DNA of 64,000 bases from assembly GCA_003963305.1 (NCBI GenBank), contig RXJR01000008.1, positions 62,001 through 126,000 on the forward strand. Reading direction: 5' to 3'. Below are positions 57,816 through 64,000 of the stretch, piece by piece (the stretch's first letter is position 1; every line of letters begins with the position of its first letter). Under the pieces are notes generated by a model. That model did not search any database, had not been told where the DNA came from, and saw nothing but the letters and a program-made list of their open reading frames with translations. A program made the position numbers and the translations under genes. The DNA comes from Candidatus Melainabacteria bacterium. GTDB taxonomy: Bacteria > Cyanobacteriota > Vampirovibrionia > Obscuribacterales > Obscuribacteraceae.

Positions 57816-57881
57816 GGCAGCTGCTCCTCTTTGATGTGTTAAAGCCAAAAAATGAGCCTGAAATGCAAAAAAGAATTGAGA

Positions 57882-57907
57882 AACGGTGGTGCCTGAGCAC
57901 CACCGTT
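57882..57907 (-). terminator. Stem-loop between chagasin-like and receiver genes
   Basis: AACGGTGGTGC (57882-57892) pairs perfectly with GCACCACCGTT (57897-57907). On the minus strand TTTCTCAATTCTTTTTT follows, so it can terminate part of the transcription inside the operon. Confidence 0.75.
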
Positions 57908-57931
57908 CCCAACTCTCAGCCGCGCCCGACG

Positions 57932-58477
57932 TTACTTGACGTCGAACGAAGCCTTGAACTTCTTGCCGTTCGGGAGCACCGTCGAGCCGCCCGTTCCGCC
58001 GTACCAGCCGCGGTAGCGGTTGACCTCGTGGAACTCGATGTCGGCCGGCCCGCTGTGACGCACCTCGAACACGAACGTGCGCGAGCCGTACTGCGGGTTG
58101 TTGCCGTTCTGCATGAACTGCCCGGTCGACTTCAGCTTGAAGCTGCCGTCGAGAGGCTGAACGACGTCCCACTCGGCGCCGGAGTACTGGTCTTCGTCGA
58201 GGACGATGTGGATCTCCTCGCCGATGCGGATGCCGCCGAACTTCTTGCCGTTGTCGCCCATGCGCACCGTGGTGACATAGACGTTGGTGGCAGCGGTGGT
58301 GGCAGCCTGGGTGAGCGAATCGGCGTCCAGCGGACCGGCGCACGACTCGCACGAATCCAGGTCATCCGAGCACGTGGCGCAGAGCTGGTGGGCGAACGCC
58401 GAGGTGATACCGCCACACTTGGTGCACTTGCCGGGAACGGCAAGCGAATTCTTCTTGCTGCAAGGATCGCAGAGCAT
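57932..58477 (-). CDS. Four-CxxC zinc-ribbon protein with chagasin-like (I42) domain
   Basis: 181 residues from ATG 58477, AAGGAGG upstream. The N-terminal 50 residues contain four CxxC pairs (Cys3/6, 18/21, 33/36, 43/46), enough for two zinc sites. The C-terminal part (about 70-181) resembles the chagasin/I42 family of cysteine-protease inhibitors: GEEIHIVLDEDQYSGAEWDV corresponds to the NPTTGY-W loop region, GSRTFVFEVRHSGPADIEF to the GxxxF segment, and NRYRGWYGG to the RPW loop. The exact inhibitor motifs are not kept, so it may have a changed target. No signal peptide, unlike most bacterial chagasins. Part of the PrkA operon. Confidence 0.7.
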   Translation of the reverse strand: MLCDPCSKKNSLAVPGKCTKCGGITSAFAHQLCATCSDDLDSCESCAGPLDADSLTQAATTAATNVYVTTVRMGDNGKKFGGIRIGEEIHIVLDEDQYSGAEWDVVQPLDGSFKLKSTGQFMQNGNNPQYGSRTFVFEVRHSGPADIEFHEVNRYRGWYGGTGGSTVLPNGKKFKASFDVK

Positions 58478-58491
58478 GGTTGGGGTCCTCC

Positions 58492-59193
58492 TTAGCGCTT
58501 GCTCTTGCAGCCGGTGCAAGAGCAGACGAACGTGACCGAGGGCCGCTCCGGCGGAGTCAGGCTGACCAGGTCGTTGCAGTCGGGCGGCAGCTCGGGCACC
58601 ACCATCTTCGACAGGCTGCCGGCAAGGGCCGCCATGTGGTCGGGAATGGTGCGCAGCTGGAACTCGAGCTCGTACTCGATGTCGGGCGGCTGGTGACCCA
58701 CGATCTCGGGGTCCTTGGCCAGCCGGGCGACGACGAAGAGCAGGCCGGGCTCGTTGGGGATTTGCTTGGGCTCGAGCGTGCTGGGCTCGCTGCCGTCACC
58801 TGCTTCGGCGACGTCGGTGGACGGCGCTTCCAGCAGGGTGATGCCGTCGTTGACGGACTTCTCGGCAGGAACGTTGACCACCGTCTTGTCGGCGGGGTCG
58901 CGGAACATGAGCAGGTTGCCCTCGGCATCGCGCTCGAGGTACTGCACGCCCTTCTCGATCTTGGCCGCGATGAGCAGCTTGCCGTCCTGGTAGACGAGCA
59001 GCTCCGCACCGAGGCGAGACATCACGCGCAGACCGACCGCTCCGTGCGGAACGGCGCAGTACGTGACACCGGAGTGCTCGAGGTTGTACTCGAGCGGACG
59101 CGTCCACAGCTTCTTGCCGGGCTCATTCAGACTGTCGGTCCGATGAACCACGTCGATGCTGAGGGTGCGCCCAATGCTGTCTGTCATCTTCAT
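58492..59193 (-). CDS. PrkA-operon protein of unknown function with C-terminal cysteine motif
   Basis: 233 residues from ATG 59193, AAGGAG seven bases upstream. The first 95 residues are beta-rich (IGRTLSIDVVHRTD; AVGLRVMSRLGAELLVYQDG), the middle is acidic and probably flexible (about 110-135), and the last part (LLFVVARLAKDPEIVGHQPP; YELEFQLRTIPDHM) is again structured. The C-terminus, FVCSCTGCKSKR, has a C-x-C-x-x-C arrangement that may bind metal. I recognise no family. Codon use and close spacing (14 bases to the next gene) place it firmly in the operon. Confidence 0.75.
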   Translation of the reverse strand: MKMTDSIGRTLSIDVVHRTDSLNEPGKKLWTRPLEYNLEHSGVTYCAVPHGAVGLRVMSRLGAELLVYQDGKLLIAAKIEKGVQYLERDAEGNLLMFRDPADKTVVNVPAEKSVNDGITLLEAPSTDVAEAGDGSEPSTLEPKQIPNEPGLLFVVARLAKDPEIVGHQPPDIEYELEFQLRTIPDHMAALAGSLSKMVVPELPPDCNDLVSLTPPERPSVTFVCSCTGCKSKR

Positions 59194-59261: not shown

Positions 59262-59301
59262 GAGGGGCTCAGCCACGCTTTTCAGCGCAACCAAGCCCCT
59301 C
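59262..59301 (-). terminator. Stem-loop after spoVR
   Basis: GAGGGGCT (59262-59269) pairs with AGCCCCTC (59294-59301), with an inner GCGCTGAAAAGC-type hairpin, 22 bases past the spoVR stop codon. A smaller hairpin GCACCAC/GTGGTGC (59220-59235) follows just before the next ribosome binding site. No T run; partial termination or processing is likely. Confidence 0.6.
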
Positions 59302-59323: not shown

Positions 59324-61117
59324 TCAGCTCAGCCAGCGCTCCTTGACGTTCTCGCCATCCTCGGTGAAATACTCGTACGGACGCGGCGGACCAAGCGGAC
59401 GACCACGCTGGTCGGTCTTGATCTCCATCGTCAGGAGTCGTACGGGAGAAGCGACGCCGCGCAGACGCCAGAAGAACTTCAGGGTATCGCGGCACTCGGA
59501 CTGCAGGAGCGGCCCGAAGTTCTCGTCGAAGGTGTGCAGCAGCGTCCAGCTGTTGTCACCGAACTTGCCCGTGTCGACCAGCTGGATGTTGGGCACCCAG
59601 TGACCGGCCGTGCGGAAGACGATCTGGCGACGCGCCTTGTGCTTGTCCGTGTCGAAGCTGTAGACCGTCTGCAGAACAGAACCGATCTGCTTGAGAGTCT
59701 GCGCCGGCACCGGGAAGATGGGCGTGCCCATCGACTGGTGGTACTCCTGGCTGGACTCCTGCACTTCCGACCACTGCCCGAGAATCTGAGCCAGACCCTC
59801 GAGGTTCATCGGCAGCTTCTTGTGGATCAAAGCCGGACTCCAGCCGTTCTTGGCCAGCGTCTCGTTGATGATGCGCATCACCCGGTAGACCCACTCCAGG
59901 GCCTGCTCGTTGATGTACTCGAACAGCTCCTCGTTGACGAACTCGTCCATGAAGCGGCTGTCGTCGTAGTGCCGGCGCACCTCCATCATCTTGTCACGGT
60001 TGCGCACCGCGACTTCGACGAGCTTGGCGCGCTTGCCCTCCACCGGCATGCCGTCCTTGTCCTTGGTCATCTTGAACTGCTTGACCTGGACGGTGCCCTC
60101 GTCCTTGCCGTACTTGCGGTCGATGTAGCGCCAGACATGCTGCCCGAGGGCATAGGGGTCCGTGTACCACATCATCGGCATCTGGTCGTGCATGGTCCAC
60201 GACTGGGCGAGGTCGAAGCGGTATTCGAAGGGCAGGTCGATCTCAGGCTGCAGGAGCAGTTCCCGCTGCCAGTACGACGCCCAGCCCTCGTTCATGAACT
60301 TCGTCCGGCCCTGGGGCTGGAAGTAGAGCGAGCGGTCGCGCACGATGCTGATCAGCATGCGCACTTCCTCGGGCAGGTTGGGCGTGTTCTCGGGGTCCAT
60401 GAGGAACCCGAGCAGGTCGGCCGTGGGCTGGATCGGGTAGCGCTTGAGCTGCGCTTCGATCATGTCGCCCTGGATCTTCAGCTGACGCTTGACCGAGGCC
60501 GACACCTCACCTTCCTGCTTCTCCCGACGACGCACCTCGACGAGCTGCGCCTTGAGCTGATCGCGCAGCTCCTTGTCGGTGAACTTGCCCGGAATCGTCG
60601 GCAGCCAGCCGACGTAGTTCTCGATCGCATGGATGGCGTCCATGTAGTACTCGACGGTCTCCCAGCCCCACTCCGGGTTCTGGACGAGACCTTCGATCTT
60701 GTTGCGACCGAGCTTGAAACGCTTGAGCACCGTCTCCGGCTGCGTCTCCGCGAACATCTTGTTGTTCTTGAAGAAGTCGACGTGGCCCCACACGGCGTGA
60801 GCCATGACGTGGAGCTGCATCGGCATGGAGTTGGTGCTCGAGAGGTAGCACACGGACGGGTCGGTGTTGAGCACCATCTCGTAGATGTGGCCGCCGTAGC
60901 CGTTCTGACGGTTCTTCTCCGCCTCCTTGCCCTTGTTCCAGTAGTGGTAGTCACCCGGAACGCCGACGAAGGGGAGAATCTGCGTGATCTGAGCGTCGTG
61001 CATGTACCAGTAGTCGATCAGATAGGTCGACAGACCCATCCGCTCGCCGGCCCGACGCATGCGCTCATCATAAATCATCAACTCGGCCATCTCGGCCGCG
61101 TAAGTGTTGTCACTCAT
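59324..61117 (-). CDS. spoVR: SpoVR/YcgB family protein
   Basis: 597 residues, longer than E. coli YcgB (about 510). The family signature CYLSSTNSMPMQLHVMAHAVWGHVDFFKNN is at about 94-123, preceded by NRQNGYGGHIYEMVLNTDPS. Further typical segments are NEGWASYWQRELL and SHDRSFVRNYL-like stretches near the middle. SpoVR is needed for spore cortex formation in Bacillus, but in non-sporulating bacteria it is a stress protein expressed with PrkA and YeaH; its activity is unknown. AAGGAGG precedes the ATG, which is two bases past the DUF444 stop codon, so the two are co-translated. No spore genes are seen. Confidence 0.95.
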   Translation of the reverse strand: MSDNTYAAEMAELMIYDERMRRAGERMGLSTYLIDYWYMHDAQITQILPFVGVPGDYHYWNKGKEAEKNRQNGYGGHIYEMVLNTDPSVCYLSSTNSMPMQLHVMAHAVWGHVDFFKNNKMFAETQPETVLKRFKLGRNKIEGLVQNPEWGWETVEYYMDAIHAIENYVGWLPTIPGKFTDKELRDQLKAQLVEVRRREKQEGEVSASVKRQLKIQGDMIEAQLKRYPIQPTADLLGFLMDPENTPNLPEEVRMLISIVRDRSLYFQPQGRTKFMNEGWASYWQRELLLQPEIDLPFEYRFDLAQSWTMHDQMPMMWYTDPYALGQHVWRYIDRKYGKDEGTVQVKQFKMTKDKDGMPVEGKRAKLVEVAVRNRDKMMEVRRHYDDSRFMDEFVNEELFEYINEQALEWVYRVMRIINETLAKNGWSPALIHKKLPMNLEGLAQILGQWSEVQESSQEYHQSMGTPIFPVPAQTLKQIGSVLQTVYSFDTDKHKARRQIVFRTAGHWVPNIQLVDTGKFGDNSWTLLHTFDENFGPLLQSECRDTLKFFWRLRGVASPVRLLTMEIKTDQRGRPLGPPRPYEYFTEDGENVKERWLS

Positions 61118-61119
61118 GA

Positions 61120-62688
61120 TTAGGCCTCCTTCTGGCGATCCTTGTCGAGGATCTGCTTGAAAGCGTCGGGGACGTCAGCCAGAGTTGCAGCCCTGGCCAT
61201 ACCGACGTACTGCTTCACTTCGGCCGGCAGCCCGAGAAGAGCCCGACCGGCGATGTCCCAACCGCCGCCACGGCTCCACGAAGTGACGCACTCCAGGTAG
61301 CCGGCGTAGTTGAAGGGCGCGGTGATGATGCGCGTCCACCACTCCTGGATCACCTTCTCGCCGTCGAAAAGCTGACCATCGGTGGCATGGAACATGTAGC
61401 GGTTCCACTCGCTGGCCGGGAACGGACCTGCCGAGACGTTGGTCTGCTTGCAGGTGGCGCCGTTCTCCGCGATGCGGTAGAGCAGATCCCAGGCGGGAAC
61501 CGCAACCGTGCCGCCGCTCGCGCCGATCTTGAAGAACTCTTCCTCCGTGTTCCAGAGGTAGTCCTGCGCGTCGTGCGAGATCTTGACGATCGCCACCTGC
61601 TTGTACTTCGTACGCAGGAAGAGAACGCAGATGAAGAAGTACGCCTTGGCGACGATGATCGGGTCACCGTCCATGGAGCCGGAACGGTCGAGGATGAGCC
61701 CGACCATCGCCTTGCTGTCCGGATCCTCGCGCTCCTCGATGCGGTTGAAACGCAGGTCGGTGTTGTGGAAGGGCACCTCGTCGATGCTCGGGATGAGCTC
61801 GCCGTCGCGCTCCTTCGCGTACACGTAACCCTCGATGCGCTGGCGCAGCGCCTCGTTGATGGTGTACGGAGCCACCGTCTTGTCGGTGTTCTCCGCCAGG
61901 TAGTCGTTGACGTAGCCGACCAGCCACTTGCGGTAGCCGGCGGCATCGGTGACCAGGTCGAGCGGGTTGGCGCTCTCGACGGCGGTGAGGAACTCCTCGA
62001 TCTGCGGTCCGACCATCTGGTAGATGGGCTGAGGCAGAACCGGGAAGCTGTCATCCGAAGCCGTCGCGTAGAACACGTAGGCCTCGAACGCCGCCTGGCA
62101 CTTGCCTTCGAAGTCGTCGACGAAGTTGCCGGGCTGGCTGTTCTTCATCGCCGAGGCGCGCTTGAGGCGGGCCACTGCGGTCTCGTGCTTGTTCATGCGG
62201 GCACGCGGACCGACCTGGCTGACGCCGCGACGCTTGTGCGTGCGCACCATCGACTCGGCGAACATCTTCTTGAGCATGTTCGGCAGGCCGAGCGCCTCGA
62301 AGAACATCTCGATGAACTCTTCGAAGCTCACCTCGATGAACTCGCCGGGGTCCTGACCGGGCTCGCCCTTGCCGCCGCCGCCCTGACCGTTCTGGTCACG
62401 ACCGGGACGCCAGATCGGCTCCTTTTCGGGGTCGACCGGAATGCGAATCTTGCCGGGCTTGGAGATGATCGGGTTGTCGCCGATGATGTCTCCGATCTTG
62501 CCCTTGGCCTTCTTCTTCTGACGGTCCCGGTACCGGTCTCGCGACGGACCCGTGGGGTCGCCGGAGTCAGGCGGGGGACTGATGTTGTTGCGATTGGCCA
62601 GAATCGGGGCCTCGGTCAGGCTGGCGGCGTCTGCGCCGACTGCCATGACGAAGCGATTCTTGGCCGAATCCTTTTTGGTTCGAGCCAT
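61120..62688 (-). CDS. DUF444 (YeaH/YhbH) VWA-like protein
   Basis: 522 residues, about 100 more than YeaH. The N-terminus is polar, with the YeaH-type segment DRYRDRQKKKAKGKIGDI (about 50-67). A VWA-like fold begins near 320: VGLILDRSGSMDGDP has an intact metal site (DxSxS), and YFFICVLFLRTKYKQVAIV and SGGTVAVPAWDLLY follow. Family members are encoded with PrkA and SpoVR in many bacteria and are induced by starvation. AGGAGGT precedes the ATG. A 175-base gap with a hairpin separates it from prkA. Confidence 0.95.
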   Translation of the reverse strand: MARTKKDSAKNRFVMAVGADAASLTEAPILANRNNISPPPDSGDPTGPSRDRYRDRQKKKAKGKIGDIIGDNPIISKPGKIRIPVDPEKEPIWRPGRDQNGQGGGGKGEPGQDPGEFIEVSFEEFIEMFFEALGLPNMLKKMFAESMVRTHKRRGVSQVGPRARMNKHETAVARLKRASAMKNSQPGNFVDDFEGKCQAAFEAYVFYATASDDSFPVLPQPIYQMVGPQIEEFLTAVESANPLDLVTDAAGYRKWLVGYVNDYLAENTDKTVAPYTINEALRQRIEGYVYAKERDGELIPSIDEVPFHNTDLRFNRIEEREDPDSKAMVGLILDRSGSMDGDPIIVAKAYFFICVLFLRTKYKQVAIVKISHDAQDYLWNTEEEFFKIGASGGTVAVPAWDLLYRIAENGATCKQTNVSAGPFPASEWNRYMFHATDGQLFDGEKVIQEWWTRIITAPFNYAGYLECVTSWSRGGGWDIAGRALLGLPAEVKQYVGMARAATLADVPDAFKQILDKDRQKEA

Positions 62689-62863: not shown

Positions 62864-64000
62864 TTACCGCTCGACCAGGAAGTCCGAGTTCTCCTCGGCC
62901 TCACGCAGCAGCTCCTCGGCGCTCCAGTCGGAGAAGCCGTACTGCTTGACCAGACGGTCCTTCGCGTCGCCGATCTTCCGACGGTCCTCGTCGGTGCGAG
63001 CGTTGGAGCTGGTGAACAGGCGGGCGCCGGCGCGCACCTTCTTCAGAACCGAGCGCTCGATGCAGCGCCGCACCGCCTCGTGGCAGGTGTAGGGCACGTT
63101 CGGCGTCCGCTTCTCGGTCAGGTGCTGGTTGACAGCCGCCAGGATCTCGGCGCGGAACTTCGGAGCCTCGGCGCTCGTCACGCCCCAGTCCGGATCCGTC
63201 TCGATCTCCCGCATGAAGGTCTCGTCGCCACCCACGGGACCGCGCGCGTAGCCACCGGTGCCGCGCACCGCCTGGTTCAGCGCGAAGGCGCGGATGTTGT
63301 CGAGGTACTTCTGCCACGTGTTCTCGCACTCCTCGGGGAAGCTCTCGATGAGCGAAGCGAGGACGATGTCACGCAGCGTCTTCTTGCGCACCTCGTCGAG
63401 GTCGTTGGCGATCAGGCCGAGCAGCCGCTCGAGCGCCTTCTCGTCGGTGACGTTCGACTTGAACCACTCGCGCAGGCGCTCGCGCACCAGGCGGCTGGTC
63501 ACGGTGTTGCCCTTGCCCACCACCTCGGCAGCGACCGAGTTGATGATCTTGGCGGTCTCACGGGGCGACATGCCCTGCAGACCCTCGCGCGCCGAAGCCG
63601 ACTCGCGCAGGTCGTGCACCGTGAGCTTCATGCCCATGCCCTTGGCACGCAGATCGCGACCGTCGTAGGCCTCGACCTTCATGTTGCGGGTGACCTGGGG
63701 GTTGTCCTCGAGACGGGTGAGGATCTCCAGGTGGGCGAGGTAGTCGAACACGTCGGGGTCGACGTGCACGCCGGAGGCGGCGAACTCGGACGAGCCCCAG
63801 ATCTTCTCGACGACACGACGGGCTGCCGACTTCTCCACCGGGTAGGGGAACCAGATCCGGTAGAAACGGTCGAGGTACGGCTCGTTCTCCTTGATGCCGA
63901 CGAACTTGTTGTACTCCGACTCGTTGGAGTTGATGATGACGATGCCGTCGAAGCCGACCGAGCCGCCCAGCGGGTTGGGCAGACGCACGCGGCGACCCTG
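62864..64000 (-). CDS. prkA: PrkA serine protein kinase, C-terminal part (5' end beyond window)
   Basis: About 378 residues are in the window and the frame is open to the right edge. Recognised from NPLGGSVGFDGIVIINSNESEYNKF, then the PrkA C-terminal domain (DRFYRIWFPYPV; ETAKIINSVAAEVV; YLDNIRAFALNQAV). PrkA/YeaG has an AAA+ core (missing here) and a kinase-like C-terminal region; it reacts to nutrient and nitrogen stress and has been reported as a protein kinase and as an AAA+ protease. First visible gene of the operon continuing leftward to 56983. Confidence 0.95.
   Translation of the reverse strand, partial: QGRRVRLPNPLGGSVGFDGIVIINSNESEYNKFVGIKENEPYLDRFYRIWFPYPVEKSAARRVVEKIWGSSEFAASGVHVDPDVFDYLAHLEILTRLEDNPQVTRNMKVEAYDGRDLRAKGMGMKLTVHDLRESASAREGLQGMSPRETAKIINSVAAEVVGKGNTVTSRLVRERLREWFKSNVTDEKALERLLGLIANDLDEVRKKTLRDIVLASLIESFPEECENTWQKYLDNIRAFALNQAVRGTGGYARGPVGGDETFMREIETDPDWGVTSAEAPKFRAEILAAVNQHLTEKRTPNVPYTCHEAVRRCIERSVLKKVRAGARLFTSSNARTDEDRRKIGDAKDRLVKQYGFSDWSAEELLREAEENSDFLVER

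Follow-up and report, generated by a model that had tools for sequence, protein, structure and literature searches.

The window, a stretch of 64,000 nucleotides, ends in a group of minus-strand genes that encode members of the PrkA, DUF444 and SpoVR families, behind which lie two smaller genes (Table 1). PrkA, DUF444 and SpoVR are widespread and are linked to starvation and sporulation. The last gene of the group codes for a protein, here termed Zn-I42, in which a module of four CxxC pairs precedes a domain resembling chagasin. The prkA gene is cut by the window end, and a second copy lies beyond it; in the genome from which the window stems, the two prkA genes are arranged in tandem and have diverged (L082 5368-7602 and 7577-9763), as is also the case in relatives, and their products could possibly form a mixed AAA+ ring. 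For the companion protein encoded between SpoVR and Zn-I42, no match was found in Pfam, and since the structural matches to its model were all of a generic beta-sandwich kind (Z no higher than 6.1), no fold is claimed for it.

Table 1. Features of the Zn-I42 locus, with positions in the window; residue numbers refer to the Zn-I42 protein
Feature	Position	Strand	Description
Terminator-like hairpin, 14 pairs	57879..57910	(-)	directly 3' of the Zn-I42 stop codon
Zn-I42 gene	57932..58477	(-)	181 aa; ATG at 58477, stop at 57932-57934
Four-CxxC module (predicted zinc sites), residues 1-50	58328..58477	(-)	conserved Cys in every aligned copy of the cassette; weak match to DZR_2 (PF18912)
Linker, residues 51-66			variable
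Chagasin-fold (I42-like) domain, residues 67-181	57935..58279	(-)	PF09394, profile of orthologues and predicted structure; beta-rich
L2-equivalent loop EDQYSGAEW, residues 95-103	58169..58195	(-)	replaces NPTTGxxW; from alignment and column entropy
L4-equivalent loop QNGNNPQYGSRT, residues 123-134	58076..58111	(-)	replaces GxGG; from alignment and column entropy
L6-equivalent loop HEVNRYRGWYG, residues 150-160	57998..58030	(-)	replaces RPW; by position only, 158-163 of low model confidence
Shine-Dalgarno sequence AAGGAGG	58478..58494	(-)	overlaps the TAA stop codon of the companion gene upstream; direct reading
Companion gene (cluster 6)	58492..59190	(-)	beta-rich product, C-terminal Cys/His cluster (CSCTGC); between SpoVR and Zn-I42 genes
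Hairpin, 18 pairs, T-rich tail	59262-59301	(-)	between SpoVR and companion genes; possible attenuator or partial terminator
SpoVR (PF04293)	59324..61117	(-)	Pfam match
DUF444, YeaH family (PF04285)	61120..62688	(-)	Pfam match
prkA (YeaG family)	62867..64000	(-)	cut by the window end; second prkA beyond the window

Since the Shine-Dalgarno sequence of the Zn-I42 gene overlaps the stop codon of the companion gene, translation of the two is likely coupled. The hairpin directly behind the Zn-I42 gene makes it likely that the operon ends there, and the one between SpoVR and the companion gene raises the possibility that the two distal genes may also be controlled separately. Such terminator-like hairpins are only suggestive, because three sites of this kind compare with a mean of 1.6 in shuffled sequences.

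Genomic context and conservation

Where the contig reaches far enough, the gene order is prkA1-prkA2-DUF444-SpoVR-companion-Zn-I42. Of nine named loci, eight keep this order; the remaining one (L033) encodes a Zn-I42 protein without SpoVR. In 50 genomes of the Obscuribacteraceae, full-length relatives of Zn-I42 were present at 22 places in 21 genomes, and of these 22 copies, 20 follow SpoVR at a short distance and on its strand; no SpoVR gene adjoins the two others (G017 and G060). Among the SpoVR genes without Zn-I42, those of G032 and G065 run into the end of a contig, and those of G015 and of contig 478 of G009, for which the sequence behind the operon is visible, truly stand without it, so that the protein is not essential to the module. 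SpoVR occurs as two diverged types, each of which is accompanied by its own type of Zn-I42 (genome G033 has both pairs), and a counterpart of the companion protein is present in the diverged operon type as well.

When presence was scored per genome, Zn-I42 and SpoVR were found together in 17 genomes, Zn-I42 alone in 4, SpoVR alone in 3 and neither in 26 (Fisher p 7e-7); adding two genomes in which SpoVR adjoins the Zn-I42 gene changed these numbers to 19, 2, 3 and 26 (p 9e-9). As the genomes are related, both p values serve only as a guide. In the controls E. coli, Bacillus subtilis, Thermus composti and Haloferax volcanii, SpoVR was present and an I42 match absent; thus, the addition of Zn-I42 to the operon looks lineage-specific.

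The relatives were retrieved with a pattern derived from seven sequences; an alignment of 14 sequences was too diverse, and a scan of contigs with the single protein found none. Candidatus Obscuribacter phosphatis and further members of the Obscuribacterales are among the named carriers, so the window can be assigned to the non-photosynthetic relatives of cyanobacteria. Outside the family, a search of 386 genomes of the phylum yielded, besides the genome of the window itself, only two matches, both to the chagasin-like part alone. No relatives were found in viral contigs, and there is thus no sign of a phage gene. Over 14 sequences, identity to the protein of the window drops to 27%, with G16, G77, W103, E151 and seven of the eight cysteines remaining invariant, and dN/dS over the whole gene was 0.16-0.25 in three pairs. 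The open reading frame is a real gene under purifying selection.

A four-CxxC module joined to a chagasin-like domain

The N terminus of Zn-I42 (MLCDPCSKKN...) was read directly, and no hydrophobic stretch or export signal is visible in it. As the zinc module begins right at the N terminus, a signal peptide would have no space in front of it. The CxxC pairs of the translated reading frame are located at residues 3/6, 18/21, 33/36 and 43/46, and in the alignment of the 14 orthologues the one cysteine that is not invariant is nearly so (His in one sequence). The description given in the earlier note, a cytoplasmic protein without signal peptide carrying four CxxC pairs as two predicted zinc sites, thus agrees with the N terminus and with the conservation of the cysteines. 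In the diverged type of Zn-I42, another residue stands in for one cysteine, and four of four sequences share a histidine within a nearby insert, which would fit a zinc site retained with another ligand.

That the module binds zinc is itself inferred from these predicted sites. Over residues 14-56, the spacing of the CxxC pairs resembles that of the double zinc ribbon DZR_2 (PF18912), but with hmmscan the protein scored 18 bits, below the curated cut-off of 27. Within the Obscuribacteraceae, the same four-CxxC module heads unrelated domains and is also found as standalone proteins of 60-90 residues; it is a lineage-specific building block. In one set of proteins (L020, L021 and L092), the domain behind the cassette shows, in its C-terminal part, a weak resemblance to the subtilisin propeptide I9 (E about 0.1). 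This resemblance was not confirmed, the match being far below the cut-off and finding no support in a search of PDB sequences. In others (L098, L100, L105 and L106; L050, L104, L107 and L109), it is joined to long, apparently helical domains or stands alone.

The likeness of residues 67-181 to chagasin was examined at several levels. In a six-frame search of the genome, PF09394 (Inhibitor_I42) matched residues 84-153 with a borderline 27.5 bits (cut-off 27.2), hmmscan of the protein gave 26.1 bits (E 1.1e-5), just under the same cut-off, and the orthologues that match reach 22-26 bits. When a profile of 14 orthologues was compared with PDB sequences, chagasin and related ICPs filled the first five ranks (E 0.003 to 0.09). 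An AlphaFold model, computed from the protein of the window and nine relatives, had a mean pLDDT of 77.8 overall and block means of 85-94 over residues 71-150, with values below 50 in the linker (52-65) and in part of the last loop (158-163). With the domain model as query, Foldseek returned 12 matches with E <=0.001, every one an I42 inhibitor. VIA-align placed it on chagasin 2nnr with a Z of 13.5 over 103 residues at 2.3 A; each of its top 12 rows was an I42 inhibitor or a scaffold derived from such an inhibitor, and the first unrelated row had a Z of 7.5. Taken together, these results make the chagasin (I42) fold of residues 67-181 well supported for a prediction. The earlier note had proposed a chagasin-like domain, and the predicted structure does not lack that fold, its best matches in both structural searches being I42 proteins; as to PF09394, the assignment stands in the six-frame search and falls just short with hmmscan.

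The loops of Zn-I42 and the canonical I42 proteins

In chagasin, a parasite protease inhibitor, three loops plug the active site of papain-like peptidases. These loops carry the motifs NPTTG, GxGG and RPW/F (PMC2607524). The Zn-I42 domain shares with chagasin and the ICPs of MEROPS family I42 (PF09394; 2nnr, 3m88 and 2wgn) the Ig-like fold and the three loops in the same places, but differs from them in the motifs, in the zinc module in front, in the lack of an export signal and in its location in a SpoVR operon. The family consensus at the respective places is EDQYSGxEW (L2), NPQYGxR (L4) and R…W with other spacing (L6), in line with the earlier remark that the inhibitor loops are correctly positioned and their motifs different. 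Neither NPTTG at L2 nor RP[WFY] at L6 was present in any of the 12 Zn-I42 sequences tested, and GxGG was likewise absent from L4 in all 12; the two GxGG matches that did occur (L002 and L007) fall outside this loop. Mean column entropy was 1.35, 1.46 and 1.57 bits for the three loops versus 1.86 bits for the remaining domain. The loop segments, being the more conserved, thus have the appearance of a functional surface directed at another target, and given their other consensus they should grip a partner other than the active site of a papain-like peptidase.

The conservation of the loops also bears on the proposal that the protein works through its zinc module, which would bind nucleic acid, store zinc or act as a redox switch, and that the chagasin-fold domain serves solely for structural support or dimerization. 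The fusion of the cassette to several unrelated domains, its occurrence alone, and a dN/dS lower in the module than in the chagasin-fold domain in two of three pairs are all compatible with this proposal. However, the higher conservation of the loops relative to the remaining domain is what is expected of a working surface, and in hmmscan the protein gave no match above cut-off to nucleic-acid-binding zinc families. A protein working through its zinc module is therefore regarded as unlikely.

The Obscuribacteraceae also possess separate, canonical I42 proteins. In their genomes, eight further I42 domains (L113-L119 and L126) score up to 75.7 bits with PF09394, and motifs of the type of NPTTGYSW, GSGG and ARPW are retained in most of them. 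As some of these domains are themselves divergent, the motif contrast between them and Zn-I42 is strong but not absolute. Several of the proteins have N termini of the signal or lipoprotein type. The I42 domains of L114 and L118 form the end of longer proteins.

The genome of the window encodes one C1-like peptidase (L027 892-2979; 695 aa) in which Cys, His and Asn motifs can be recognized and a signal peptide is not obvious. A hydrolase-like motif, GHSAGA, was noted in the C-terminal half of this protein. Across the family, C1 peptidases were detected in 3 of 50 genomes versus 21 of 50 for Zn-I42. Since no C1 peptidase was detected in the seven genomes with canonical I42 proteins either, co-occurrence does not discriminate and was dropped as a test of an inhibitor role. 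A true but diverged cytoplasmic inhibitor, which would protect the cell from a papain-like (C1) cysteine peptidase or control its own, is consistent with the chagasin fold, with the retained places of the three loops and with the presence of a C1-like peptidase in the genome. It is nevertheless improbable in view of the motifs missing from all three loops of every sequence tested; the scarcity of C1 peptidases weighs little in the same direction, as genomes with canonical I42 proteins share it.

A possible role in the PrkA-DUF444-SpoVR module

In E. coli, two components of the module, yeaG and yeaH, jointly take part in the adaptation to nitrogen starvation (PMC4664914), and across species YcgB, YeaH and YeaG form a cluster (PMC2375023). 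The operon of the window contains all three families of this E. coli triplet (YeaG-YeaH-YcgB) in conserved order, but adds to it a second, tandem prkA and two beta-rich genes with Cys-rich tails or modules.

One might suppose that Zn-I42 is an inhibitor or regulator of a peptidase from some other class, such as a proteolytic activity of PrkA itself, as a limited ATP-dependent protease activity has been reported for B. subtilis PrkA (as cited in PMC13001217) and as the cassette also heads the domain weakly resembling I9; however, PrkA of B. anthracis, which is required for sporulation, was devoid of protease activity when purified, the activity described earlier may be due to a contaminant (PMC13001217), and the I9 resemblance is, as stated above, not confirmed, so that this role is hardly likely. 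A precedent would be BsuPI (IPI) of B. subtilis, an intracellular, Ig-like inhibitor of subtilisin that is linked to peptidase control (PMC3901451). BsuPI was not among the structural matches listed for the Zn-I42 domain, which excludes nothing. To our knowledge, no zinc module is known for it.

On balance, we lean slightly toward Zn-I42 being a cytoplasmic accessory or adaptor subunit of the PrkA-DUF444-SpoVR stress and starvation module, with the chagasin-fold domain as its binding domain. That the chagasin fold was recruited as an intracellular adaptor of this machine, its peptidase-binding loop face being re-specified for a component or a substrate, is proposed more tentatively and at somewhat less than even likelihood. 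The module, consisting of PrkA (AAA+), DUF444 (VWA-type) and SpoVR, would have gained Zn-I42 as an additional subunit in the cytoplasm; the loops, kept in place and conserved, would hold either one of the module's components or a protein on which the module acts. The four-CxxC module, a lineage-specific cassette that heads unrelated domains as well, would probably supply a shared docking surface. Location in the operon suggests co-expression, which is not contact; contact of Zn-I42 with PrkA, DUF444, SpoVR or the companion protein, and with it the adaptor role, is what we infer. The word "adaptor" is used here in a loose sense.

The most fitting description of Zn-I42 is therefore that of an I42-fold zinc protein encoded in the PrkA-DUF444-SpoVR operon; by its motifs it does not qualify as an I42 inhibitor, though it may still inhibit some peptidase. 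The variant peptidase inhibitor implied by the earlier note is not upheld, given the loss of the canonical motifs, the existence of separate canonical I42 proteins and the membership of the gene in this operon, which the note does not mention; the protein is probably not an ordinary protease inhibitor but a new binding partner of a stress machine. In the collection of papers searched, none joined chagasin with a zinc ribbon, and none Obscuribacter with SpoVR. It appears that an inhibitor fold was probably turned to another use, and its unconverted relatives in the same bacterial family allow comparison. An operon of PrkA, DUF444 and SpoVR with two added small proteins of the binding type, one of them having a loop-binding fold that is well understood, provides a concrete handle, namely to find what the re-specified loops hold. 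If Zn-I42 is indeed an adaptor, its binding partner would reveal a target of the YeaG-YeaH-SpoVR system.
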